Shown in pieces: positions 10,293 through 24,618 of a DNA stretch of 64,000 bases. The notes below the pieces were generated by a model that did no database searches, was not told where the DNA came from, and saw only the letters and a program-made list of their open reading frames with translations. Made by a program: the position numbers and the translations under genes. Numbering within the stretch: position 1 is the stretch's first letter; each line of letters starts with the position of its first letter. The DNA comes from Hybos culiciformis (lineage: Eukaryota; Arthropoda; Insecta; Diptera; Hybotidae), in NCBI GenBank assembly GCA_964007475.1, contig OZ023273.1, forward strand, positions 48,857,525-48,921,524, written 5' to 3'.

Positions 10293-12001
10293 ACGATAAA
10301 GAAGAAATTATTCAGAGAGTCAAGGGAAAAATAAAAAGCGGGGAAATTTGAGGTAGTATAGCATGAAGCTACTTACCAAAATAATAGCGATACTATTTAT
10401 ACCAAAATAATATCGAGTAGGTAGAAAATTTATAAAATATAAAAAAAAAGAATTTAAATTTAAATAAATTAATATTTGATAAAATTATTTTAAAAATACA
10501 CATTTTTCCACAATTAAATTTTGAAATTTACTATTTTTATAAAAACTATACTTATTTTCAAGGGTTGTGTCACAATTACTATTTTTATAAAAATATATCT
10601 GAGAAACTAGACGTGGTAGAGAGACAGGAAAAAAGATTGCGGCCTCATTTTATTAGTACTTTCGAATTAAAGTCCAAAACAAATCGAAGATCATTTACAT
10701 AATAGTGTTTGTTAATGTGAATTATTCGTCATACGTTATTTCAACTTTTAAATAATTTTCAATCCAATACCTTGATAAAATTATTTCCCAAAAATTTATT
10801 TTCGAATTTTTTATCTATTAGGTATACCTACCTTAAATTTTTTTTCTAAATTAATTTATTTTGTTGAATGAAGCAGACAAAAATCTATGAAAGGTGAAAA
10901 TCCTTGAAAATAAAATATAAACACAAATAAAAATCTGTTATCTTCTATATTAAAAAAAACAGTTCTACCATATTTCATTTCTAAAATACAAAAAATAAAT
11001 AAAAAATTAGATTTATGAATTACTAGAGTGTAAAATAATTTTATTTTATTTTCAATATTTTTCATACCAATATAAATTATTCAATAATAAAAAATAACAT
11101 TTTATATAAGCACAAGATAATGTCTTTTCTAAGAGACAAAATTTGTTAAAGAAAGCATTCTATAATTTTCCAAGAAAAAATTACAATGGATTTCATTAAA
11201 TAACGTTATTCAGTTTCCGTCTATTATTTAGAATGTATGTCAGAAAAAATAAAAGAATCTATTGCTAACTAAACTATCAACCATTTATGGGTACAATAGA
11301 TAAAAACTAGTTCACCAAGTATACGATGTCGTATTAGTTCGTATATATTTTTATTATCACTATCTTCTTGATTTCTAAATGTAACTAGCTAATGTGTGTT
11401 CAAACTAAATTTCAGATCAAACTAAATTTCATATTCACTTTACAATATTTAAGCTTAGTTATTTTATTTTTGAGCTTCCACTGTTTTTCATTTTGTAGTA
11501 GTTTTAAGTTTAATAAAATTATCGATCTAGAAATAATTACTTAAAAAAAAATCAACATTTTTACGTGATAACCAAGTACCTGTTCATGTTGTATATGTAC
11601 ACACAAAACATATTCAATGTATTGTTAGGTCTTTTAATGCTAATTTTATTCTTTTCAAATAAAAAGCTTAAAATCGTAGAGGTTTTTATACAAAAGAAAT
11701 ATAAAAATAAATTGATTATTTAACAGTTTGGTTACAATTCATTTATTTAATAAGTATTTTGAATTCTTTGTTACTTTTAATATTATGTTTATCTCACCTC
11801 ACAGAAATATGCATACATATTTATATGGGAAATTATCAAAGCTTATGGACAAGACAAGATACCGACTAAAGTTGACCTTTGTTTTCCTAATGAGAGGATT
11901 TTTTTTTTCAAATATAATTTGCAGAGAAAGAAATCGCTAATGGGTCGCGTAATTAAATAAGATTAAGGCTATCTTCAAGTAAGAATAATTTAATTTCTTA
12001 T
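10293..12001. other. AT-rich DNA upstream of the retrotransposon; no gene seen
   Basis: No convincing ORF or repeat was seen. The last four bases, TTAT at 11998-12001, are the 5' target-site duplication of the LTR retrotransposon. Confidence 0.6.
11998..12001. repeat. 5' target-site duplication TTAT
   Basis: Four bases directly before the 5' LTR, matching the four directly after the 3' LTR (24615-24618). A 4-bp duplication is usual for many Ty3/gypsy integrases. Confidence 0.75.
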
Positions 12002-12069
12002 TGTTACCGTGAAGTTTGAATAGCGTTTTATAACTGAACAAATTCTTTTCACATTTTTTAATATTTTTT

Positions 12070-12105
<36 letters not shown>

Positions 12106-12611
12106 ACTTATGAATTTTTTTTATGACCTTAAATCCTTTAAAGACCCCTAATAAACTAAAATTAGTTTTTTTTCCCAAATGTTTAAAATTTCTTTACCTT
12201 AATTAAGTGCTATATCTTTTATATTATGTTAAGTACAGTATCTTTTATATTATATTAAGTACAGTAACGTTTATATTATATTAAGTACAGTATCATTTTA
12301 TGTTTTTGTAATAAATAAAAAGAAAAAAAAAAACATGCATAATATGACTAACATATTTTGGAAAAAAAAAAAAGAAAAAAAAAAAGAAAGGATCAAATTT
12401 TAATTGTTTTTTGATAATATTGTTTTTTTGATAATATTAAAACCATTAGAAATCATTACTAATTCCAATTCTGGGTTTTTCTTTGTTTTGTGTGAAGTTG
12501 TTGTTGGACTGGTTTTTTAAAAAACATATAAAAAGAAATGCATTTCCAATAGCAATTTCATACTGATTGAAAAACTGAAAGGTAAAAGAAATAGAGAAAA
12601 CTCATTCTTTG

Positions 12612-13172
12612 CTTCGGTTGTTCAGTTTTGGCAGGATGTACAACATCAGCCAAGACAGAACAACTGAGGATAACTCTTCCTTGTTTTCTTTAGGTACTAC
12701 AGTTGTGCGTCCGAGACCAAGTAAATTTATTTTACTGGCCAAGGACAACAACTGTAGTGGATTGTTATTAGAGCGGAGCAATTTAATGCTAGCTCTAATA
12801 ACAACCAAAATCCCAATCTTAGTGGAGGATTCTTGGGCCTATCCAAGAATCCGAAGCTAAGATATACCGATTACCACATGGATGCTCCTACGGGAGGATC
12901 CATACTACGTTGTGGTTTTATGACTGGCTCACCTGCCACTGGCGTGGAGGCAAGATCACTGAGCAATCATGATTTTGTATCCATTGACAGTGACAGAGGA
13001 GCACAGTCATAAGTGGACGGACGTTATTGATCGTTCCTTATCTCAACCAAACCGTGCGGTACCCGGTTGAGATAAGCTTCGAGTAAAACTGATCAATAAT
13101 GCTCCATCCGGTCGGTCAGGAGATGTCACTAGGCATCTGCTGCAATCCAAAAATTTATATGTCCATATAAAT
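12612..13172 (+). other. Array of about eight strong hairpins in the 5' LTR
   Basis: Successive helices: 12612-12632 with 12649-12669 (about 21 bp, one A-A mismatch, several G-U); 12696-12706 with 12748-12758 (11 bp); 12762-12774 with 12792-12804 (13 bp perfect); 12827-12836 with 12843-12852 (10 bp) extended by ATCTTAG/CTAAGAT; 12878-12888 with 12893-12903 (one mismatch) closing a UACG tetraloop on a C-G pair, inside ACCAC/GTGGT; 12918-12926 with 13004-13012 enclosing smaller stems; 13037-13048 with 13065-13076 (12 bp) nested in 13024-13032 with 13091-13099; 13153-13161 with 13164-13172. It is more GC-rich than its surroundings. It looks like folded RNA. Function is unknown. Confidence 0.8.
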
Positions 13173-13245
13173 ATAGCTTGGCTTACCTCAATAGCCATAG
13201 ATAGGAATTAGTTTTTTTTTTAATAATAATGATTAGGCTTGCCAG

Positions 13246-13286
<41 letters not shown>

Positions 13287-13957
13287 AATCAGAAGCAAAA
13301 TTGTGGATAATTAAAGTTTTAAATTTTTCAACAAAACAATTTTTTTTGAGTATTTTATCTCGAATTTGAGCATTTTTAATTTTCTTTTGGGAAATTTAAC
13401 AAACTTCATTTGGCAACCCTGCGAATATTCCATATAACATACAATGAAATTTTTTATATTAATAGCGAATGTATAGAAATTTTAGCATCCGACATAACAA
13501 ATTTTTATTCTTTTCTGGTTAAAACTTAAACAAAGCTAAGTAGGCGCAATAAAATACACTGAAGCTGTTCAATTTAAATTGGTGTGAAGCTAATGATGTG
13601 ACACATGCAGAAATTGCGATTCTACAAACTTTGCGAGAAAAGCTAATATCTTAAGTTTAAAAAAACCAAAATTAAACGAACAAAGATTCATAATTTTTTT
13701 AAAATAAAAATAAATTTCATTTTATAACTAATATGACTTTAAAAAAATATGCAAAACAAACATTTATGAATAAAAACGTAGTACAGTGCTTCCCAAAGAA
13801 GTACATCTGGCAATCCTAGGCTAGTAGAGGGAAATCAAGCTATATCTCTGCAACTAAAAACTAAAAAAAAAAAAAATATTTTCACTTCTTCAAAACTTAA
13901 AGAATTGGTTTTAATAAATTTTTTTTTATATATTTTTATTTTTCTTTAAAAATTTTG

Positions 13958-14034
13958 ATACTGATTGAAAAACTGAAAGATGTTATACTGATTGAAAAAC
14001 TGAAAGATGTTTTATTGATTGAAAAACTGAAAGA
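13958..14034 (+). repeat. 27-bp tandem repeat in LTR (three copies)
   Basis: ATACTGATTGAAAAACTG occurs with period 27 at 13958, 13985 and 14012 (third copy TTATTGATTG). An outlying copy sits at 12560-12581. The period is a multiple of three, so the frame reads a repeated LIEKLKDV-like peptide. There is no ATG start, so I treat it as noncoding repeat. Confidence 0.8.
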
Positions 14035-14385
14035 TTTGAAAACAAGAAGACACGGAAGACAGTTCAAAAATTTGATCATCAAAGCATCTAGCAAAAAAAA
14101 AATATGCAAACCTAACAGAAAAATTTCTTTATCATATAAGACATTTATGTTTAAATATAAAGACAAATAATTATAATTGTAAGAAAAATTCTTTATATGT
14201 CAAAAATAATTAGATTAGTTTTTATAAATTTTCACAATCGTAGGGTACTTTTAAATTTCTAAAAGTTATTTTTTTTATAAATAAATACTATGTAATTTTA
14301 AAGTAAAAAAAAAATTATGTTTCATTAAATCTTTCTCATAGGTCCTAGCGGAAAAAAGAAATGCTGATGTAAGGTCCAGCAATAG

Positions 14386-14629
14386 GTGGCCATAGCCACA
14401 AGCTGAAGAATGACGTCGTAGTCATTTAGGTGTAATTTTTTTTTAGACTTGGTCGGGGTTTCTTGAAATATCTTTTTTTTTTTCTATCTCAAATTTTACC
14501 TTCTTCCAAACATGACATCCTAAAATTTTGTTATGGACACTCTGGTGTTCACTGTCGCGTACCCACCCAACGACGAGCTTAGACCCGGCCTGTGAACAGG
14601 ATGTCTTAGACAGTGGACTCGGCACCAGA
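14386..14629 (+). other. Second structured zone of the LTR (U5 side)
   Basis: Hairpins seen: GTGGC-CATA-GCCAC at 14386-14399 and AATGAC-GTCGTA-GTCATT at 14409-14426. A nested structure pairs TCTGGTG (14541-14547) with CACCAGA (14623-14629) and CACTGTC (14550-14556) with GACAGTG (14609-14615), enclosing CCTGT-GA-ACAGG (14589-14600). This part also appears folded in RNA. The same structures recur in the 3' LTR. Confidence 0.65.
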
Positions 14630-14762
14630 TATATTTTAGCTAGTAAAGTTATTTTATTAATCTTTACTATAGCAAATTTCACTTGGCATAAATTTCTATG
14701 TTAAGATCTCGGTGGTTCTTTTTTTTGAACTAAATACTTTTACACAACCCTAATTTCGTTAC

Positions 14763-14897
14763 CTAACAAATGGATGGTACCCAATACCAGAAGTTTGTTT
14801 TTAACTCTCCTAATAGTTCTGTAACAAATGGCACAACATGGTGTCACAAGTTTGTTATATCTACATTTCAATTATTTCTCCTAATAAATCCGTAACA
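14763..14897 (+). repeat. Repeated LTR-end/PBS-like modules inside U5
   Basis: TAACAAATGG occurs at about 14764, 14822 and 14893. The last is the true LTR end plus PBS. The middle copy, CTCCTAATAGTTCTGTAACA followed by AATGGCACAACATGGTG, resembles the true junction CTCCTAATAAATCCGTAACA followed by AATGGCGCCCAACGTGG. The first two therefore look like decayed earlier junctions now inside the LTR. Confidence 0.6.
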
Positions 14898-14899
14898 AA

Positions 14900-14914
14900 T
14901 GGCGCCCAACGTGG
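14900..14914 (+). promoter_or_regulatory. Primer binding site for tRNA-Lys(CTT)
   Basis: TGGCGCCCAACGTGG lies two bases after the LTR end. From general knowledge it is complementary to the 3' end of metazoan tRNA-Lys(CTT), including CCA. It would prime minus-strand synthesis. Confidence 0.9.
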
Positions 14915-14938
14915 TAAGACTATGAGTCCTACCCTAAC

Positions 14939-15000
14939 AAAGAGTAGCAAGACTTTCGAGTCTCATGCTCTTTGAAAACTTGTAAGGTGAAGACCTTACA
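14939..15000 (+). other. Leader stem-loops after the PBS
   Basis: AAAGAG (14939-14944) pairs with CTCTTT (14968-14973) around AGACT-TTCG-AGTCT (14950-14963), which has a UUCG loop. TGTAAGGT-GAAG-ACCTTACA is a perfect 8-bp hairpin at 14981-15000. The position between PBS and gag suits dimerisation or packaging signals of LTR elements. That role is inferred only. Confidence 0.6.
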
Positions 15001-15166
15001 CAATGATTTTTTTTTTAAACTATGTTTTAAAAAAAAAAAAGAGAAAAAATATAGCATTTTAGTAATTTTAGTAATTTTTACACTACATATTTTAGAAACC
15101 CCAAGTCAAAATATTAGCTCTATAAAAATATTTTCCTTATAATATTTGAAGAAACTTCTCACCTTA

Positions 15167-15215
15167 CAGTGTGAGTGCAGTAGAAAAGTAGGCACAGTCT
15201 ACACTGTACATGCTG
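15167..15215 (+). repeat. Leader hairpin module, copy 1
   Basis: 49 bases starting CAGTGTGAGTGCAG and ending CACTGTACATGCTG. Fold: CAGTGTG with CATGCTG, then CAG with CTG, then an inner hairpin AGTAGG-CACAG-TCTACA. Outside the module a 2-nt TA bulge separates it from TCACCT (5') pairing with AGGTGA (3'). Confidence 0.85.
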
Positions 15216-15312
15216 AGGTGAAATTTTCTGAAAATATTTATTATCTGTACTCTAAACTATCAAACTTTTTTATTAATTCTAACATAATACAGTTCTCCTT
15301 TAATTTTTCTTG

Positions 15313-15362
15313 CAGTGTGAGTGCAGTATAAAATGTAGTCACGGGCTACACTGTACATGCTG
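15313..15362 (+). repeat. Leader hairpin module, copy 2
   Basis: Same 50-nt core with inner hairpin TGTAGT-CACGG-GCTACA. The outer stem is weakest here: TTTCT (5') against GGAAG (3') with wobble pairs and a TG bulge. Confidence 0.85.
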
Positions 15363-15424
15363 GGAAGTAGTTTTAGGATAAACTGTAGCAATCTTTTTCT
15401 TCATAAAAGAAGATTAACATCGTA

Positions 15425-15474
15425 CAGTGTGAGTGCAGTTTAAAATGTAGGCACAGTCTACACTGTACATGCTG
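15425..15474 (+). repeat. Leader hairpin module, copy 3
   Basis: Same core with inner hairpin TGTAGG-CACAG-TCTACA. The outer stem is ATCG (5') against CGAT (3') after a TA bulge, a sequence unlike the outer stems of copies 1 and 4 but still complementary. Confidence 0.85.
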
Positions 15475-15533
15475 CGATTTTGATTTTCAGTACTTGTTCC
15501 ACAAGTATAGTGGCGTTTCGTCTTTTCACCTTG

Positions 15534-15583
15534 CAGTGTGAGTGCAGTAGAAAATGTAGTCATGGGCTACACTGTACATGCTG
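15534..15583 (+). repeat. Leader hairpin module, copy 4
   Basis: Same core with inner hairpin TGTAGT-CATGG-GCTACA. The outer stem is TTCACCT (5') against GGGTGAA (3') after a TG bulge. The T-A pair of copy 1 becomes T-G here. Confidence 0.85.
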
Positions 15584-15993
15584 GGGTGAACAGGCGAAAT
15601 AAAACAAAAATTTTCTGTTTATAAACTATCCACCTTTTACTAAAAATAGAGCTAACTAAGATTTTTTTTTTTTTCTTCTTCTCTAAATTTTTTCTATCTA
15701 TTCATTTTATATTTACTTTACATCAAGCATTTCTGTTGACCAAAAGGACCAAATTCAATGTAAAAAAAAAAAAAAACAAATAACAAAACAAACTATGATT
15801 TGTTAACAGCATATTCTTTAAAAATTTTTTTTATGAAACATATATATTCTATTTATATTTTATTTCATTTTATTTTTAATTTATTCAATTAACAGCTTAT
15901 TAAACTAATTATAAGTTATTTCGATTTTATTTTTTTAAAATGTATATAAACACAATTTCTCGTTAGGAACAAGAAAATTAAGAAATAGAAAGC
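15584..15993 (+). other. 3' part of retrotransposon leader
   Basis: AT-rich untranslated leader with T- and A-runs and no clear structure. GTATATAAACAC near 15943 is a TATA-like string, with no evidence that it is used. The gag ATG follows at 15994 in GAAAGCATGACAG. Confidence 0.6.
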
Positions 15994-17583
15994 ATGACAG
16001 ATAAAAACTTATATATAGCGCAAGATCACTTAGAAATAAGTGAATACGAATACGAATACAACAGAAATAAGATTCCGTTTTCAGACCTAGAATCATATAA
16101 AGAACTAGAAGATTTAAGAAGATTTAGAGAAAAATGGGCACACAGAGAACAGGCACAGATAGAACAAGGAGTAACAGGATTCTCGAAAAGCAGTTTCCCT
16201 CCGAGAAGTCGAAAGAATACCTTAGAAATAGAAGGATTAGGAATACAGGGAATTAAAATGAACCACAAGGTCGGCCACATCAACAAAGGACCAAATCCAC
16301 CCTCAAAAGCATGTAAAGAGAAAACCAGCGAAACCGAAAGAAATTTAAGATTCCCCGCACAGCAGAATCAACCAGGGAATACGGCAAATGGAAAACCTGA
16401 AAAAGAAGATAAGAACGCAATGGCTAGCTTACTAGCCATGATAGATAAATTGGACAAAAAAATAGAGCCGCTCGTTACCGAACGTCAGTCAAGACAGAAA
16501 GAAGCAGTAAACTCTGATAGCGGAAGTTCTCGTTTTACAACCTCAGAGAGTTCCGTTGAAAGAGAACAGTCAAGACCAGTCTGCTCAAGCACTAGAGCAC
16601 GAGACTCCACTCCATCAAACAGATATACCGAACGCAGACCGAATTACCAACATAAACAAAGAGAAAGATGCGATTATGACCATGGACAACCAAGATACAC
16701 TAGAGAACTCGATCTTAAGAAAAGATTTGGACTTTTCTTTAACGGAAACGAAGTTGAGAATTTCGTCAAAGACGTGGATATTCAGCGAGTTGACCATAAC
16801 ATATCTGACAAAATTCTAATCAACAATTTCCACCAACTTCTGGACCCAACAATAAAAAAATGGTATTTCTCGTATTTCAGGTCACAAGACAAACAAACTA
16901 CGACCTGGAGAACATTTAGTACAGCTCTTATAAATGAGTACGCTGAAGCTCTTGAAGAAGATTTCAAAATAACTGAGCTCCTCAATAGGAAACAGAAATT
17001 GGGAGAAACTTGGCGGGAATATATACAAGCCATGACAGCGTTGAATCAAAAACTAGAAGAGCCATTGAATGAGATGCGTTTAACTAACAGGATTAAACAA
17101 AATGCCAAGAGAGAGTACAAAGAGCCACTCCGAGCAGTAGAGATAAGAGATCTTACCACATTAAGATCCAAGTTCAGGATGCTTGACAACACCAAAGAAT
17201 CTAAACCACCAAATCGGTCAGATTACGAAGACTTTAATTACTCAAGACCAGGTTACGACCGTAACAGGTATAAAGTACATAACAACGACCATGAGTATTA
17301 CGACGATTATAATGGATATTATGAAACTGAAGCTGTGCATAACACTAGTAAACAGCCCTACTTTAAGTCTTGCAATGTCAAGAGGAGATACGAGGAACAA
17401 TCAAGACCTGCAACACCAGAAAATAATTTACGCTGTTGGAACTGCGAAGAGCCCGGCCATGAATTCATAGACTGCCCAGCAGATTTCAGAAGAATTTTCT
17501 GTTATAAATGCGGGATGCGCAAAGAAGTGGCTCCCACATGCAAAAACTGTCATAAATCAATTCGTTTCCAGTCGGGAAACTAG
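15994..17583 (+). CDS. gag: Gag polyprotein of the LTR retrotransposon (529 aa)
   Basis: Structural protein that would form the intracellular particle and bind genomic RNA. The ATG at 15994 opens an uninterrupted 529-codon frame ending TAG at 17581-17583. Residues ~1-230 are charged and low-complexity (R/E/S/N-rich). Residues ~245-390 carry the capsid-like retrotransposon Gag region, with the hydrophobic W-Y-F-S-Y segment near 289 and W-R-T-F / W-R-E-Y motifs. A CCHC zinc knuckle, CWNCEEPGHEFIDC, is at 481-494, followed by a cysteine cluster (CYKC...CKNC) without the usual histidine, seen also in related insect elements. The frame is intact, unlike the downstream integrase. A GGGAAAC heptamer overlaps the last two codons, so a fraction of ribosomes should shift -1 into pol. 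Confidence 0.92.
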   Translation: MTDKNLYIAQDHLEISEYEYEYNRNKIPFSDLESYKELEDLRRFREKWAHREQAQIEQGVTGFSKSSFPPRSRKNTLEIEGLGIQGIKMNHKVGHINKGPNPPSKACKEKTSETERNLRFPAQQNQPGNTANGKPEKEDKNAMASLLAMIDKLDKKIEPLVTERQSRQKEAVNSDSGSSRFTTSESSVEREQSRPVCSSTRARDSTPSNRYTERRPNYQHKQRERCDYDHGQPRYTRELDLKKRFGLFFNGNEVENFVKDVDIQRVDHNISDKILINNFHQLLDPTIKKWYFSYFRSQDKQTTTWRTFSTALINEYAEALEEDFKITELLNRKQKLGETWREYIQAMTALNQKLEEPLNEMRLTNRIKQNAKREYKEPLRAVEIRDLTTLRSKFRMLDNTKESKPPNRSDYEDFNYSRPGYDRNRYKVHNNDHEYYDDYNGYYETEAVHNTSKQPYFKSCNVKRRYEEQSRPATPENNLRCWNCEEPGHEFIDCPADFRRIFCYKCGMRKEVAPTCKNCHKSIRFQSGN

Positions 17584-17628
17584 ATTCACAATCTGTGGTG
17601 AGGCCATCTGCAGATTGTGAAATAGGCC
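17574..17628 (+). promoter_or_regulatory. -1 programmed ribosomal frameshift signal, gag to pol
   Basis: The heptamer G-GGA-AAC (17574-17580) is in the correct register directly before the gag TAG. Slipping -1 gives GGG AAA CTA, which is the pol frame. Four bases later an 11-bp perfect stem begins: 17585-17595 (TTCACAATCTG) with 17611-17621 (CAGATTGTGAA). A loop GGCC (17602-17605) could pair with GGCC at 17625-17628 to make a short pseudoknot, but the 3-nt crossing loop makes that uncertain. The pol frame is open only from 17556, so the usable overlap is 28 nt. Confidence 0.88.
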
Positions 17629-20552
17629 AAAAAATTGAAATAACAAAGAACAATACTGATAACAACCAGGATTTGACAAAGGAACCTAATCAAGAGAGAA
17701 ACGAAAAATTAATAAAAGAACCTTATATAAAAGAAAGCGAAGAATTAAAAGTGGTTCAAATATTAAAAAGGACTGAAGAAATAGAGACTCCAGTAAAAGA
17801 AAAAAAACATTGGCCTCCCTATCATATCAGAAAACAAAGATATGATAGGAAGAGAGCTGAAATTATTACGTTTAAAAATGTCAGCGAGATGAGGCTAAAC
17901 GTTAATAAAATAATACAATCAAAAAAACGTAAAGAGAAATCTATAAGAGAAAATCAATATTATAGAGGAGTGAAGGAAGATAAGAGAAAAATTCTGTCAT
18001 CAGTTATAAAACTTCCTAACGACAATAGACCTTATGTGAAAATCAAAATTGGACAAAAATCATTAAAGGGATTATTGGATTCTGGTGCATCTATTTCGTG
18101 TTTAGGAAAAGATCAAAAATGGATAAGAGAAAATACTGATTTCAAAATACATAGAATAAAAGAATCAGTCATAACTGCTTCAGGTACTAAAACAGAAATA
18201 ATAGGATATATTTTAGTACCCATACTCTTTAATAAGATTTCAAAAGTTTTGAAAATTCACGTGGTGCCTAAACTATCCCAAGAACTTTATCTTGGAGTCA
18301 ACTTCTGGACCAACTTCAAACTAGCACCCCAAATTTTTAATCTAGTGTCCGAAATCTCAGAAATAGACCTGAACATTCACAAATTAGACTCTAATGAACA
18401 ATTAGAACTTGAAGCAATTAAAAGAATGTTTCCTTCATACACAGTAGAAGGATTAGGATGCACAAGTTTGGAACAACACATAATAGACACAGGAGACAGT
18501 GAGCCAGTAAAGCAAAAACATTATCCAATCTCCCCCGCCATTCAAAAGCTAATGTATGCTGAAGTAGACAGGATGTTAGAAATGGGCGTGATCGAAGAAA
18601 GCAACAGTGCATGGACATCACCAGTAGTACTTGTAAGGAAACCAGGGAAAAACCGTCTGTGTTTAGATTCAAGAAAAGTGAATGATCTGACAAAGAAAGA
18701 TGCGTATCCTCTGCCGAATATACAAGGACTTTTAGCACGAATTGACAAAACGAAATATATCAGCAGCATAGATTTAAAAGATGCATTTTGGCAGATTCCG
18801 CTTGAAAAGGAGTCTCGAGAGAAAACTACTTTCGCTATCCCCGGTAGACCTCTATATCAATACACCCGCATGCCGTTCGGACTCTGTAATGCATCTCAGC
18901 GAATGTGCAGATTAATGGACAAGGTAATTCCGCAACACTTAAAGGAGGAAATAAAAGTCTACTTAGATGACTTAATGGTAGCAACTGAGACTAAAGAACG
19001 TCACTTCCAACTCTTAAAAGAAGTTGCAATTGCTCTGAGAAAAGCCAACTTGACCATAAATGTTGAAAAATCAAAATTCTTCATGAAAGAAATCAAATAC
19101 TTGGGATATGTCATAGGTGCAAATGGTACGAAGCCAGATCCAGGAAAAATAACTGCAATTTCTGAATATCCTGAACCAAAATCTTTGAAACAAACCAGAC
19201 GTTTCTTAGGAATGACAGGATGGTTTCAACGTTTAATACAAGGTTATTCCACAATAGTTTCACCTATTACAGATTGCTTACAAATTAAAAACAGCGGTAA
19301 TAAATTCATTTTCACTGAACGGGCAAGAGAAGCTTTCACGAAAATTAAGGAAATCTTAATTTCGGAACCCGTGTTAGCTCCCCCTAATTACGACAAGCCT
19401 TTCTTTATACAAACCGATGCCAGCCAATCCGGCATTGGAGCAGTGATTTTCCAATTAGATTCAGAAAAAAACGAACACCCTGTAGCATACATGTCGAAAA
19501 AATTCAACGAAACACAAGCTCGGTGGGCAGCTACAGAACAAGAATGTTTTGCAGTTGTCGAAGCGATAAGGAAGTTTCGAATGTATGTAGAAGGCGTCAA
19601 ATTCACAGTATTAACTGATTGTGCAGCACTCAAGTGGCTAATGACTTGTAAAGATCACCACGGAAAGCTTTTTAGGTGGTCACTAAAGCTACAAGCGTTT
19701 GAATTCGACATTCAACACAGATCAGGGAAAAAGAATGTAGTAGCAGATTCACTTTCACGATCTTTTGGAATGGAAGAAATTGCTTTAAGGTGTCCAGACT
19801 TAGATTTAGAATCAGAAGCCTTTGAATCAGATAAATATAAAGAAATTCGTGAAGCAGTAATAGATAATAAAGACAGGCTTCCGGATCTTCAAATAGTTGA
19901 AAATAAAGTATTCAAAAGAGTGGAATTTAGAAAAGACCAAGAAGTATCAGAATGCAACCTATGGAGACTTTGGATTCCGGAAGAGCTAGTAAATGAGGTG
20001 ATTAAAAATAATCATGACCCTCCACACTCAGCACATGGCGGACTTGGAAAAACCCTCTATAAAATTAGAACAAAATATTACTGGCCTCAAATGTTTTCAG
20101 ATGTAAAGAGATACATTCAAAGCTGCAACATTTGTAAAGAAACAAAACCTAGTAATCAGATCCTTAGACCCCCCATGGGAAATAAACCAATACCATCACG
20201 CCCATTCCAAAATCTATACATAGACTTTTTAGGCCCATATCCAAGGTCTAGATCTGGAAATACTTGCATTTTTATAATACTCGATTCATTCTCTAAATAC
20301 GTTATTATTCGCCCATTACGCAAAGCCACTACAGCGAACGCAATTAAAGTACTGGATGAAGCCATTAGCTTATTTGGATGTCCAGAAAGCATTTTGAGTG
20401 ACAATGGGACACCGTTAGTTGCAAAAGATTTCGAAGCATATCTAAAAAATTACGGCATCGAACATAAATTAACTGCTTTCTACGCACCACAAGCAAATGC
20501 AAGTGAAAGGGTAAATGGGTCAATCTTAAACGCAATAAGAGCAACAGTATAA
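17580..20552 (+). CDS. pol: Pol polyprotein: protease, RT, RNase H, integrase (interrupted)
   Basis: Copies the element RNA into DNA and inserts it. It has no ATG of its own: the pol frame is entered by the -1 shift. Counting codons from GTG at 17595, an aspartic protease motif LLDSGAS has its D near 162. RT has D-S-R-K...Y-P-L-P early, F-G-L-C-N-A-S, and the catalytic YLDD at 456-459. RNase H has TDAS near 607 and HRSGKKNVVADSLSR at its end. The integrase HHCC zinc-binding segment starts near H807, and catalytic D877, D936 and E971 keep D-D(35)E spacing. The frame meets TAA at 20550-20552 just after the integrase core. The C-terminal part continues in another frame. The RT and catalytic residues are intact, so the break looks recent. 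Confidence 0.93.
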   Translation, partial: LDSQSVVRPSADCEIGQKIEITKNNTDNNQDLTKEPNQERNEKLIKEPYIKESEELKVVQILKRTEEIETPVKEKKHWPPYHIRKQRYDRKRAEIITFKNVSEMRLNVNKIIQSKKRKEKSIRENQYYRGVKEDKRKILSSVIKLPNDNRPYVKIKIGQKSLKGLLDSGASISCLGKDQKWIRENTDFKIHRIKESVITASGTKTEIIGYILVPILFNKISKVLKIHVVPKLSQELYLGVNFWTNFKLAPQIFNLVSEISEIDLNIHKLDSNEQLELEAIKRMFPSYTVEGLGCTSLEQHIIDTGDSEPVKQKHYPISPAIQKLMYAEVDRMLEMGVIEESNSAWTSPVVLVRKPGKNRLCLDSRKVNDLTKKDAYPLPNIQGLLARIDKTKYISSIDLKDAFWQIPLEKESREKTTFAIPGRPLYQYTRMPFGLCNASQRMCRLMDKVIPQHLKEEIKVYLDDLMVATETKERHFQLLKEVAIALRKANLTINVEKSKFFMKEIKYLGYVIGANGTKPDPGKITAISEYPEPKSLKQTRRFLGMTGWFQRLIQGYSTIVSPITDCLQIKNSGNKFIFTERAREAFTKIKEILISEPVLAPPNYDKPFFIQTDASQSGIGAVIFQLDSEKNEHPVAYMSKKFNETQARWAATEQECFAVVEAIRKFRMYVEGVKFTVLTDCAALKWLMTCKDHHGKLFRWSLKLQAFEFDIQHRSGKKNVVADSLSRSFGMEEIALRCPDLDLESEAFESDKYKEIREAVIDNKDRLPDLQIVENKVFKRVEFRKDQEVSECNLWRLWIPEELVNEVIKNNHDPPHSAHGGLGKTLYKIRTKYYWPQMFSDVKRYIQSCNICKETKPSNQILRPPMGNKPIPSRPFQNLYIDFLGPYPRSRSGNTCIFIILDSFSKYVIIRPLRKATTANAIKVLDEAISLFGCPESILSDNGTPLVAKDFEAYLKNYGIEHKLTAFYAPQANASERVNGSILNAIRATV

Positions 20553-21027
20553 CTGGGATGGTGACTTAGATAGTATAAGCACTGCTCTTAGGGCTACAGT
20601 ACACGAATCAACTGGAATGTCACCATACTACGTTCTATTCGGACAACAAATGATCACACATGGTAGCTCCTTTAAATTACTCAGGAAAATGCATATGATA
20701 GATGGAGAAGATGTAGAAATACTACCCCCGCCCGGATCGTTCCAAATCATAAAAGAGATAGTGCGGAATAATTTAGAGAAAGCTAAAGAGAAAGGCAGAA
20801 AGTTATATAATAGAAAGTGCAAAAACGTGAAATATAAAATAGGTCAAACAGTCTACAGGAGAAATTTTGCTCAAAGCGATTTTAGCAAACACTTCAATGC
20901 TAAGTTGGGAAAGAAGTTCATTCCATGTATAGTATTAAAAATAATTGGAAATAGCATATATGAAGTAAAAGACTTAGCAGGTAAAAACTCTATAGGTAGA
21001 TATCACGCCAAAGATCTGAAAGTTTGA
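20551..21027 (+). pseudogene. pol: C-terminal part of integrase, out of frame with pol
   Basis: From about 20551 the continuation of integrase is read in a different frame (NWDGDLDS..., then MSPYYVLFGQ, typical of the region after the DDE core), ending at a stop at 21025-21027. The following basic segment, with VYRRNFAQS and GRYHAKDLKV, resembles the integrase C-terminal SH3-like tail. A small indel near 20549 explains the break. Either this copy is defective or the assembly has an error here. Confidence 0.85.
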
Positions 21028-21555: not shown

Positions 21556-21621
21556 GCCCGGCTAACTCAGGCGAAATAGCATGAGACTCTTTACCTCAGG
21601 GTCGGCTTCAAGCCCCAACTG
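21556..21621 (+). pseudogene. tRNA-Lys(CTT)-like sequence in the retrotransposon 3' region
   Basis: From GCCCGGCTAACTCAGG through AGCATGAGACTCTT and CTCAGGGTCG to TTCAAGCCCCA, this closely follows metazoan tRNA-Lys(CTT) as I know it. The 5' acceptor half, D arm and anticodon arm (loop CTCTTTA, anticodon CTT) are recognisable. The 3' part is short by about three bases, and the 3' acceptor strand is replaced. The B box is altered (GGCTTCAAGCC), so it is unlikely to be an active pol III gene. It is sense relative to the element, whose PBS predicts the same tRNA as primer. Confidence 0.85.
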
Positions 21622-21679: not shown

Positions 21680-21712
21680 TTCAATTCACCGCCTTCGTCG
21701 GGTGTAATTGAA
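21680..21712 (+). other. Stem-loop just upstream of the 3' LTR
   Basis: TTCAATTCACC pairs with GGTGTAATTGAA (one bulged T) around GCCTTCGTCG. It sits eight bases before the LTR, where a polypurine tract would normally be. The bases touching the LTR are CCTATTT. Confidence 0.65.
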
Positions 21713-21719
21713 CCTATTT

Positions 21720-21787
21720 TGTTACCGTGAAGTTTGAATAGCGTTTTATAACTGAACAAATTCTTTTCACATTTTTTAATATTTTTT

Positions 21788-21822
<35 letters not shown>

Positions 21823-22961
21823 ACTTATGAATTTTTTTTATGACCTTAAATCCTTTAAAGACCCCTAATAAACTAAAATTAGTTTTTTTTCCCAAATGTT
21901 TAAAATTTCTTTACCTTAATTAAGTGCTATATCTTTTATATTATGTTAAGTACAGTATCTTTTATATTATATTAAGTACAGTAACGTTTATATTATATTA
22001 AGTACAGTATCATTTTATGTTTTTGTAATAAATAAAAAGAAAAAAAAAAACATGCATAATATGACTAACATATTTTGGAAAAAAAAAAAAGAAAAAAAAA
22101 AAGAAAGGATCAAATTTTAATTGTTTTTTGATAATATTGTTTTTTGATAATATTAAAACCATTAGAAATCATTACTAATTCCAATTCTGGGTTTTTCTTT
22201 GTTTTGTGTGAAGTTGTTGTTGGACTGGTTTTTTAAAAAACATATAAAAAGAAATGCATTTCCAATAGCAATTTCATACTGATTGAAAAACTGAAAGGTA
22301 AAAGAAATAGAGAAAACTCATTCTTTGCTTCGGTTGTTCAGTTTTGGCAGGATGTACAACATCAGCCAAGACAGAACAACTGAGGATAACTCTTCCTTGT
22401 TTTCTTTAGGTACTACAGTTGTGCGTCCGAGACCAAGTAAATTTATTTTACTGGCCAAGGACAACAACTGTAGTGGATTGTTATTAGAGCGGAGCAATTT
22501 AATGCTAGCTCTAATAACAACCAAAATCCCAATCTTAGTGGAGGATTCTTGGGCCTATCCAAGAATCCGAAGCTAAGATATACCGATTACCACATGGATG
22601 CTCCTACGGGAGGATCCATACTACGTTGTGGTTTTATGACTGGCTCACCTGCCACTGGCGTGGAGGCAAGATCACTGAGCAATCATGATTTTGTATCCAT
22701 TGACAGTGACAGAGGAGCACAGTCATAAGTGGACGGACGTTATTGATCGTTCCTTATCTCAACCAAACCGTGCGGTACCCGGTTGAGATAAGCTTCGAGT
22801 AAAACTGATCAATAATGCTCCATCCGGTCGGTCAGGAGATGTCACTAGGCATCTGCTGCAATCCAAAAATTTATATGTCCATATAAATATAGCTTGGCTT
22901 ACCTCAATAGCCATAGATAGGAATTAGTTTTTTTTTTAATAATAATGATTAGGCTTGCCAG

Positions 22962-23003
<42 letters not shown>

Positions 23004-24614
23004 AATCAGAAGCAAAATTGTGGATAATTAAAGTTTTAAATTTTTCAACAAAACAATTTTTTTTGAGTATTTTATCTCGAATTTGAGCATTTTTAATTTT
23101 CTTTTGGGAAATTTAACAAACTTCATTTGGCAACCCTGCGAATATTCCATATAACATACAATGAAATTTTTTATATTAATAGCGAATGTATAGAAATTTT
23201 AGCATCCGACATAACAAATTTTTATTCTTTTCTGGTTAAAACTTAAACAAAGCTAAGTAGGCGCAATAAAATACACTGAAGCTGTTCAATTTAAATTGGT
23301 GTGAAGCTAATGATGTGACACATGCAGAAATTGCGATTCTACAAACTTTGCGAGAAAAGCTAATATCTTAAGTTTAAAAAAACCAAAATTAAACGAACAA
23401 AGATTCATAATTTTTTTAAAATAAAAATAAATTTCATTTTATAACTAATATGACTTTAAAAAAATATGCAAAACAAACATTTATGAATAAAAACGTAGTA
23501 CAGTGCTTCCCAAAGAAGTACATCTGGCAATCCTAGGCTAGTAGAGGGAAATCAAGCTATATCTCTGCAACTAAAAACTAAAAAAAAAAAAAATATTTTC
23601 ACTTCTTCAAAACTTAAAGAATTGGTTTTAATAAATTTTTTTTTATATATTTTTATTTTTCTTTAAAAATTTTGATACTGATTGAAAAACTGAAAGATGT
23701 TATACTGATTGAAAAACTGAAAGATGTTTTATTGATTGAAAAACTGAAAGATTTGAAAACAAGAAGACACGGAAGACAGTTCAAAAATTTGATCATCAAA
23801 GCATCTAGCAAAAAAAAAATATGCAAACCTAACAGAAAAATTTCTTTATCATATAAGACATTTATGTTTAAATATAAAGACAAATAATTATAATTGTAAG
23901 AAAAATTCTTTATATGTCAAAAATAATTAGATTAGTTTTTATAAATTTTCACAATCGTAGGGTACTTTTAAATTTCTAAAAGTTATTTTTTTTATAAATA
24001 AATACTATGTAATTTTAAAGTAAAAAAAAAATTATGTTTCATTAAATCTTTCTCATAGGTCCTAGCGGAAAAAAGAAATGCTGATGTAAGGTCCAGCAAT
24101 AGGTGGCCATAGCCACAAGCTGAAGAATGACGTCGTAGTCATTTAGGTGTAATTTTTTTTTAGACTTGGTCGGGGTTTCTTGAAATATCTTTTTTTTTTT
24201 CTATCTCAAATTTTACCTTCTTCCAAACATGACATCCTAAAATTTTGTTATGGACACTCTGGTGTTCACTGTCGCGTACCCACCCAACGACGAGCTTAGA
24301 CCCGGCCTGTGAACAGGATGTCTTAGACAGTGGACTCGGCACCAGATATATTTTAGCTAGTAAAGTTATTTTATTAATCTTTACTATAGCAAATTTCACT
24401 TGGCATAAATTTCTATGTTAAGATCTCGGTGGTTCTTTTTTTTGAACTAAATACTTTTACACAACCCTAATTTCGTTACCTAACAAATGGATGGTACCCA
24501 ATACCAGAAGTTTGTTTTTAACTCTCCTAATAGTTCTGTAACAAATGGCACAACATGGTGTCACAAGTTTGTTATATCTACATTTCAATTATTTCTCCTA
24601 ATAAATCCGTAACA
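21720..24614 (+). repeat. 3' LTR, 2895 bp
   Basis: Repeats the 5' LTR, including all its hairpins (array at about 22328-22888) and tandem repeats, offset ~9716. Differences I saw are A- and T-run lengths only. It ends CCGTAACA and is followed by the TTAT duplication. Confidence 0.95.
22328..22888 (+). other. Hairpin array in the 3' LTR
   Basis: The same eight-hairpin region as 12612-13172, with no base change noticed in the stems. Confidence 0.8.
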
Positions 24615-24618
24615 TTAT
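24615..24618. repeat. 3' target-site duplication TTAT
   Basis: Matches 11998-12001. Confidence 0.75.

Follow-up and report, generated by a model that had tools for sequence, protein, structure and literature searches.

The predicted fold of four hairpin modules, which lie between the primer binding site (PBS) and gag of a Ty3/gypsy retrotransposon in Hybos culiciformis, is well supported as a target of selection on RNA pairing. The element lies in a window of 64,000 nucleotides. The initial annotation of this window proposed that pairing, and not just sequence, is selected, and other copies of the element bear this out: when both bases of a predicted pair have changed, the pair is kept in 28 of 30 cases. 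Structured packaging (psi) RNAs are already known. An array like this one, with four covarying copies of a purine-bulged hairpin in the leader of a Ty3/gypsy element, was absent from the titles and abstract starts that searches of the open-licence PMC literature listed.

The element and its four leader modules

The element belongs to Ty3/gypsy (Metaviridae): it has LTRs, gag, a pol with the order protease, RT, RNase H, and integrase, and a 4-bp target site duplication (Table 1). The domains in gag and pol are Retrotrans_gag, RVP, RT, RNase H, and integrase. The 2.9-kb LTRs (2896 nt for the 5' LTR) are 99.9% identical by self-BLAST, with no mismatches and three gap openings. Given this identity and the TTAT target duplication, we consider the insertion to be young. 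For env, we found no ORF of at least 120 amino acids between pol and the 3' LTR. The PBS is presumably of the tRNA-Lys type, judging by its likeness to the 3' end of tRNA-Lys.

Table 1. Positions in the window of the element's parts and of the predicted leader hairpins
Feature	Position	Strand	Basis or remark
Target duplication TTAT, 4 bp	11998-12001 and 24615-24618		flanks of element
5' LTR (TGTTACC...GTAACA)	12002..14897	+	self-BLAST to 3' LTR; ends and flanks read
Primer binding site TGGCGCCCAACGTGG	14900..14914	+	2 nt downstream of 5' LTR; sequence read
Extended hairpin 1, core 15167-15215	15142..15237	+	single-sequence fold; slightly shorter by RNAalifold (12 leaders)
Extended hairpin 2, core 15313-15362	15288..15387	+	basal pairs covary AU/GC, CG/UA
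Extended hairpin 3, core 15425-15474	15409..15488	+	single-sequence fold, RNAalifold
Spacer hairpin between modules 3 and 4	15490..15508	+	one pair UA/CG/UG across lineages; columns 373-391 of RNAalifold alignment, also in single-sequence fold
Extended hairpin 4, core 15534-15583	15515..15600	+	outer pair UG/AU across lineages; variant register in RNAalifold
gag ORF, Retrotrans_gag	15994..17583	+	one CCHC zinc knuckle read by eye
pol ORF: protease, RT, RNase H, integrase, to in-frame stop	17595..20552	+	
Separate open stretch, end of integrase in other copies	20617..21027	+	sequence match
3' LTR	21720..24614	+	self-BLAST, ends read

Among the best 120 of 4320 matches, the named relatives of the RT are all flies (Ceratitis, Episyrphus, Drosophila pseudoobscura, and Hermetia; 57-60% identity). 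Gag gave a single distant protein, and neither the module pattern nor RT peptides matched viral contigs. The long LTRs, and presumably the type of the PBS, recall the Osvaldo lineage of Ty3/gypsy, which has LTRs of 997-2055 bp and a tRNA-Lys PBS (excerpts of PMC3286476). The LTR described here is longer than that range, and a comparable leader array is not mentioned in those excerpts.

As the annotation had it, there are four cores of about 50 nt between the PBS and gag (49 nt for the first and 50 nt for the others). With up to three mismatches allowed, CAGTGTGAGTGCAGT occurs four times in the 64 kb, always exactly (0.22 expected). The four modules share a minimum-energy fold in which every bulge is on the 5' side. 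From the outside in, it consists of CAGTGT/ATGCTG (6 bp), an unpaired GA, GTGCAGT/ACTGTAC (7 bp), a 6-7-nt bulge NNAAAAN, GTAGNC/GNCTAC (6 bp), and a 3-nt loop. The annotation was right that the four modules share a core fold, but its register, CAGTGTG/CATGCTG, is a close alternative to the minimum-energy fold. RNAalifold chooses this alternative for module 4, and all of the L068 modules fold this way (other places in the genome are given as L numbers, and their modules as m1, m2, and so on). In the main register GA is unpaired, and in the alternative it is half paired; AAAA is unpaired in both.

Outside the cores, the flanks were reported to differ in sequence and still pair, and they do, with runs of 6, 5, 4, and 7 pairs in copies 1-4. 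Random flanks from the leader reach runs of at least 4, 5, 6, or 7 with frequencies of 0.029, 0.012, 0.0054, and 0.0027. Copies 1 and 4 have the same outer stem, so there are just three independent outer stems, and that of copy 2 pairs a pyrimidine strand with a purine-rich strand, which is an easy pairing. The reported swap of an inner pair between G-U and U-G is real. Relatives have A-U and U-A there as well, and also the mismatches U-U and G-G.

We also compared folding energies to those of shuffled sequences. For window modules 1-4, the RNA z scores are -3.10, -1.43, -1.47, and -2.58, so two of the four are unexceptional on their own. The antisense z scores are -2.58, -1.32, -2.58, and -1.83, and the sense energy is lower each time. 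Of 58 distinct modules, 50 have a lower energy on the sense strand than on the antisense strand, but at position 3 just 7 of 15 do. Six modules from L065 and L068 have z scores from -1.96 to -4.65. On average, windows in the leader modules have z = -1.41, while the mean is -0.27 for gag and -0.28 for pol. Even so, stronger folds than those of the leader exist in the element, namely in the LTR, at the PBS, and in parts of pol. LTR positions 12600-12900 and 22200-22500 fold strongly (z down to -6.5 sense and -8.7 antisense); by eye, these are a row of inverted repeats. The lowest sense z among 250 windows is at 17751-17900, near the start of pol (-8.0; antisense -7.0).

Pairing in other copies of the element

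The leader as query gave at least 41 matches in the organism's own 342-Mb genome, from 40 copies including the window's (L041 and L021 denote a single place). We read 152 modules from these 40 copies; 32 copies have four modules and eight have three. A single-module query (40 of its 198 candidates were scored) added six places, L063-L068, for a total of at least 46 places with the leader, the window's included. Other copies have three to seven modules. The one with seven, L065, has two shortened modules: its fourth modules at 849-907 and 1177-1235 lack the apical hairpin, and a block of modules 2-4 appears to be duplicated. The L068 leader is identical to the window's at 375 of 471 positions (80%). 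When the window's copy is compared with three diverged lineages, modules are 85-99% identical and spacers 68-90%.

To look for selection on pairing, we took the fold of the window's copy alone (160 pairs) and tested it on one copy each of L022, L029, L031, L038, and L068. In the first four lineages, 18 pairs have changes on both sides, and 17 of these pair and one is broken. If partners are swapped within pair type, the means are 3.0 kept and 3.9 broken, and none of 5000 permutations reached the observed result. In L068 alone, 11 of 12 such cells pair (2.1 kept and 2.6 broken if permuted). Across the five lineages, 28 of 30 cells with both sides changed still pair, versus 5.2 kept and 6.5 broken for permuted partners (0 of 5000), where cells count sequences and not events, and some changes are common to related lineages. 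All told, 56 cells were broken in the five lineages, versus 89.1 expected. As antisense pairing, 24 of the same 30 cells are kept, so the strand preference is modest.

We also aligned 39 modules that were picked by lineage: 23 from loci of a larger alignment of 58 modules and 16 from loci added later. (This alignment omits the pair of shortened modules in L065, as well as L064 and L067, which have the same five full modules as L065.) In the 36 distinct modules, 95.1% of cells pair, as compared to 87.3% in shuffles. Both-side changes occur in 9 of the 25 module pairs, which one of 500 shuffles achieves, and the covariation score is 0.225, versus 0.097 if shuffled and at most 0.077 with slid partners. 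Compensations in the core include pair 37-47 from AU to GC (five modules, from L065 and L068), pair 18-58 from UA to CG (L030 and L065), pair 23-55 from GU to UA (L065), and pair 39-45, which is GU, UG, AU, or UA. Permuting partners in this alignment gave P = 0.021 for the core, P = 0.18 for the outer stems, and 0 of 4000 for all pairs.

Given 12 leaders, RNAalifold returned modules 1-3 essentially in the minimum-energy fold described above and put module 4 in the other register. It found compensatory changes in 12 of 138 pairs, as well as longer basal stems and a spacer hairpin. A covariance model scored higher than a sequence-only model on all 16 of the full-length modules that were held out, by 1.1 to 30.3 bits (mean 13.2; the effective sequence number differs between the models). 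The largest gain was for L065 m6. The covariance model scored lower on the two shortened L065 modules (27.4 versus 30.4).

Tests that consider one position or one pair at a time gave weaker results. On a tree derived from the spacers, single changes within one position kept the core pair in 11 of 32 cases (8.3 expected, P = 0.07) and the outer pair in 5 of 10 cases (4.2 expected, P = 0.33). On the same tree, pair 23-55 became U-U five times, and there were three both-side changes on single branches, all of which keep the pair. Individual pairs seldom reached significance: in a home-made test resembling R-scape, whose null was made by shuffling branches, 1 of 25 module pairs was significant, and 0 of 138 leader pairs. 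This test is underpowered, and slid controls yielded 0-2 significant pairs, so it does not discriminate. In the 58-module alignment, two of five measures (the number of both-side pairs and the number of pair types) were not above shuffles, and in the alignment of 39 modules, one of five (the number of further pair types) was not. Many copies are probably dead and decaying freely, which would weaken the within-position and per-pair tests. Also against selection on pairing, stems are broken in some copies: in m1 of L022, in m1 of L023-L025 and L027, and in the chimeric m2 of L066, where it is the outer stem.

These weak within-position tests would also fit a fold without function, in which modules are alike because of recent duplication or gene conversion and pairing is a by-product. 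Other observations agree with this: the four L068 modules have one inserted base in common, L066 m2 is a chimera of m1 and m2, and L065 has a duplicated block. The common insertion and the chimera imply that modules recombine, and the insertion indicates that homogenisation, and not selection alone, keeps them alike. But conversion copies sequence and does not yield joint changes on both sides of diverged stems or of the spacer hairpin, and 28 of 30 such changes keep the pair, so we think that a fold without function is highly improbable.

Both-side changes also bear on whether the array acts as DNA. It might hold sites for a chromatin protein, as does the su(Hw) array of gypsy, with an inverted repeat that reflects a dimeric protein. 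The modules do contain an 8-bp inverted repeat (TACAGTGT/ACACTGTA), and DNA folding parameters prefer it in modules 1 and 3. The su(Hw) array is also a multi-copy noncoding array at the same place in a Ty3/gypsy element (PMC4276936, in part). But the inverted repeat has no both-side changes, which rules it out as the selected fold, whereas the bulged RNA fold has many, including G-U to U-G. Also, the su(Hw) array has 12 repeats that act as DNA, whereas here it is pairing in the transcript that is kept. We consider a DNA-level array to be very unlikely.

Conserved purines and a putative packaging signal

The unpaired purines are nearly frozen. In the first 40 copies, GA and AAAA have 2 changes in 24 site-slots; the remaining unpaired sites have 35 changes in 32 (P = 4e-7). 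Among the loci found later, GA is replaced by TA in one module (L063 m2). Stems are also constrained: without the fast pair 40/46, which has 12 changes at 8 sites, they have 10 changes on internal branches at 144 sites, versus 64 at 162 sites in spacers (P = 1e-9). The flanks outside the modules have 545 changes in 537 sites. On terminal branches, stems have 20 changes at 144 sites and spacers have 65 at 162. The copies on terminal branches may be dead, so part of the difference is not due to selection in an active lineage. An upstream ATG in the 3' arm is ruled out as the cause of conservation, as this ATG is lost in lineages that keep the pairing. We also set aside the idea that GTGAGT in the 5' arm is a splice donor or U1 site: T18 changes to C jointly with A58 to G.

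We think it quite possible that the array is a packaging signal (psi) that is bound by several Gag molecules at once, and perhaps it is coupled to translation of the leader, which has 17 upstream ATGs. The one-sidedly bulged stems would present the unpaired purines (GA and AAAA) to the zinc-knuckle end of Gag. Four such sites would provide avidity, so that full-length RNA of the element would be picked over cellular RNA. Gag on the array could also stop ribosomes in the leader, with its many upstream ATGs, and the RNA would then shift from translation to packaging. Template switching between modules during reverse transcription may keep the modules alike. We suggest psi because of the array's place between the PBS and gag, the avidity that repetition could give, and the nearly frozen purines. 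Two observations lower our confidence: whether GA is bulged varies with the register, and the low rate in stems is also seen on terminal branches.

Selection on the pairing of a structured RNA between the PBS and gag is what we would expect for psi, and it is what we found. Rfam had no matches at the gathering cut-off and four chance-level matches at E ≤ 5, none of them to a psi family. Palindromes (at least 6 nt, with at least 2 G/C) within the folded stretch 15142-15613 do not lie in any apical loop, where one would expect a dimer site of retroviral type: TGTACA is in module stems, and palindromes at 14901, 15617, and 15801 are outside the stretch.

Psi of MLV consists of tandem stem-loops between the PBS and gag. 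In MMTV, a purine loop is a critical Gag-binding site for packaging (excerpts of PMC8096270). Like retroviral psi as described there, the array is in the PBS-gag interval of the sense RNA and combines stable stem-loops with unpaired purines. It differs in that it has four near-identical copies of one bulged hairpin, the host is a Ty3/gypsy element, Gag binding is putative, and a palindromic apical loop was not seen in the folded stretch. In the leaders of pararetroviruses, ribosomes shunt past a stem-loop on which there is a putative packaging signal rich in purines (PMC5902531, in part).

Such shunting raises an alternative: the array might bring ribosomes to the start of gag, past the upstream ATGs, by shunting or as an IRES, and Gag may be uninvolved. 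With 17 upstream ATGs in 14898-15993, and short uORFs within the modules, plain scanning to gag is unlikely. An IRES or shunt leader should combine many upstream ATGs with predicted structure ahead of the main ORF, and this leader does. There are precedents: gypsy has two IRESs (excerpts of PMC4276936), and pararetroviruses shunt past structured leaders with uORFs (excerpts of PMC5902531). But m3 of L031-L036 and m1 of L029, L030, and L037 have kept the pairing without the ATG of the 3' arm, and four near-identical hairpins are not in themselves required for IRES function. We find this alternative rather doubtful. The 5' UTRs of Idefix and gypsy, with their IRESs, resemble this leader in being long and structured; here, IRES activity of the array is putative. 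We know of no four-copy covarying module in either 5' UTR. Gag of Idefix reportedly acts on its own 5' UTR.

The constitutive transport element (CTE) of simian retroviruses also has a repeated bulged hairpin design; it binds NXF1 and is located at the 3' end of the genome. The array shares this design and might similarly be a nuclear export or stability element for full-length RNA. The export signal of gypsy is, like its packaging element, reported as unknown (PMC4276936, in part). But the array is in the 5' leader, it lacks an Rfam match at the cut-off, and there is no ORF of at least 120 amino acids between pol and the 3' LTR. If the element has no env (judging by ORFs only), then it has less need to export unspliced RNA. 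We think that an export element is unlikely.

The hairpins might instead be cut by Dicer into near-identical small RNAs, and they do have about 25 pairs each and near-invariant arms. But the one-sided bulges of 2, 2, and 6-7 nt interrupt the near-continuous ~22-bp arms that are expected of a miRNA precursor, and matches to miRNA families are far under their cut-offs (18.7 versus 60, on the minus strand, and 14.3 versus 52). Also, a small-RNA source would not need frozen unpaired purines, and cutting would destroy the element's genome. We regard this as most improbable.

To return to packaging, our joint reading, which we offer with rather low confidence, is a multivalent Ty3/gypsy psi: a repeated hairpin "address label" that would show the same unpaired purines to Gag, in a copy number that can grow from three to seven, with modules kept alike by template switching and with outer stems that diverge by compensation. 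If this is true, no packaging/translation switch RNA would have been defined earlier for an insect Metaviridae element. Little is known about how insect LTR retrotransposons distinguish their own RNA from that of the cell, and according to a 2014 review, neither the packaging element of gypsy nor its export signal is known (excerpts of PMC4276936). The array is short and suitably placed, and one genome holds many natural variants of it, so roles in binding, packaging, translation, and export are directly testable on natural leaders.

Other features of the element and its copies

A 62-nt stretch at 21556-21617, about 100 nt upstream of the 3' LTR, is 83% like a Drosophila tRNA-Lys (E = 1.5e-13), and this is the same kind of tRNA that the PBS seems to need. 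The stretch is present in the close copy L058 and was not found in the 3' stretches of the diverged copies L059-L062. No purine tract is visible directly before the 3' LTR (21700-21720), which is the expected site of plus-strand priming. Inside the 3' end of the 5' LTR, at 14762-14840, the LTR end together with the PBS start (TAACAAATGG) is repeated twice in degenerate form, which looks like outward growth of the LTR.

In the 3' stretches of four diverged copies that have kept their modules, just A-rich sequence matched the initial 1 kb of the window's LTR. We did not find a derivative that combines LTRs and the array with deleted coding sequence: 15 of 16 downstream stretches match gag or pol (for L042, 40 residues only). 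Four closely alike copies, L023-L025 and L027 (G000:C1:89280000-89306000), are spaced about 7.7-8 kb apart. Downstream of L023, module 4 and gag are absent and pol follows directly.

Near position 16100 in gag, several copies hold about 500 nt more after residue ~38; the window's copy, L002, L009, and L014 are without it. Split matches might suggest an intron in gag, but this is ruled out: L019, L043, and L051 carry extra gag-region sequence there, which we read as a longer gag.
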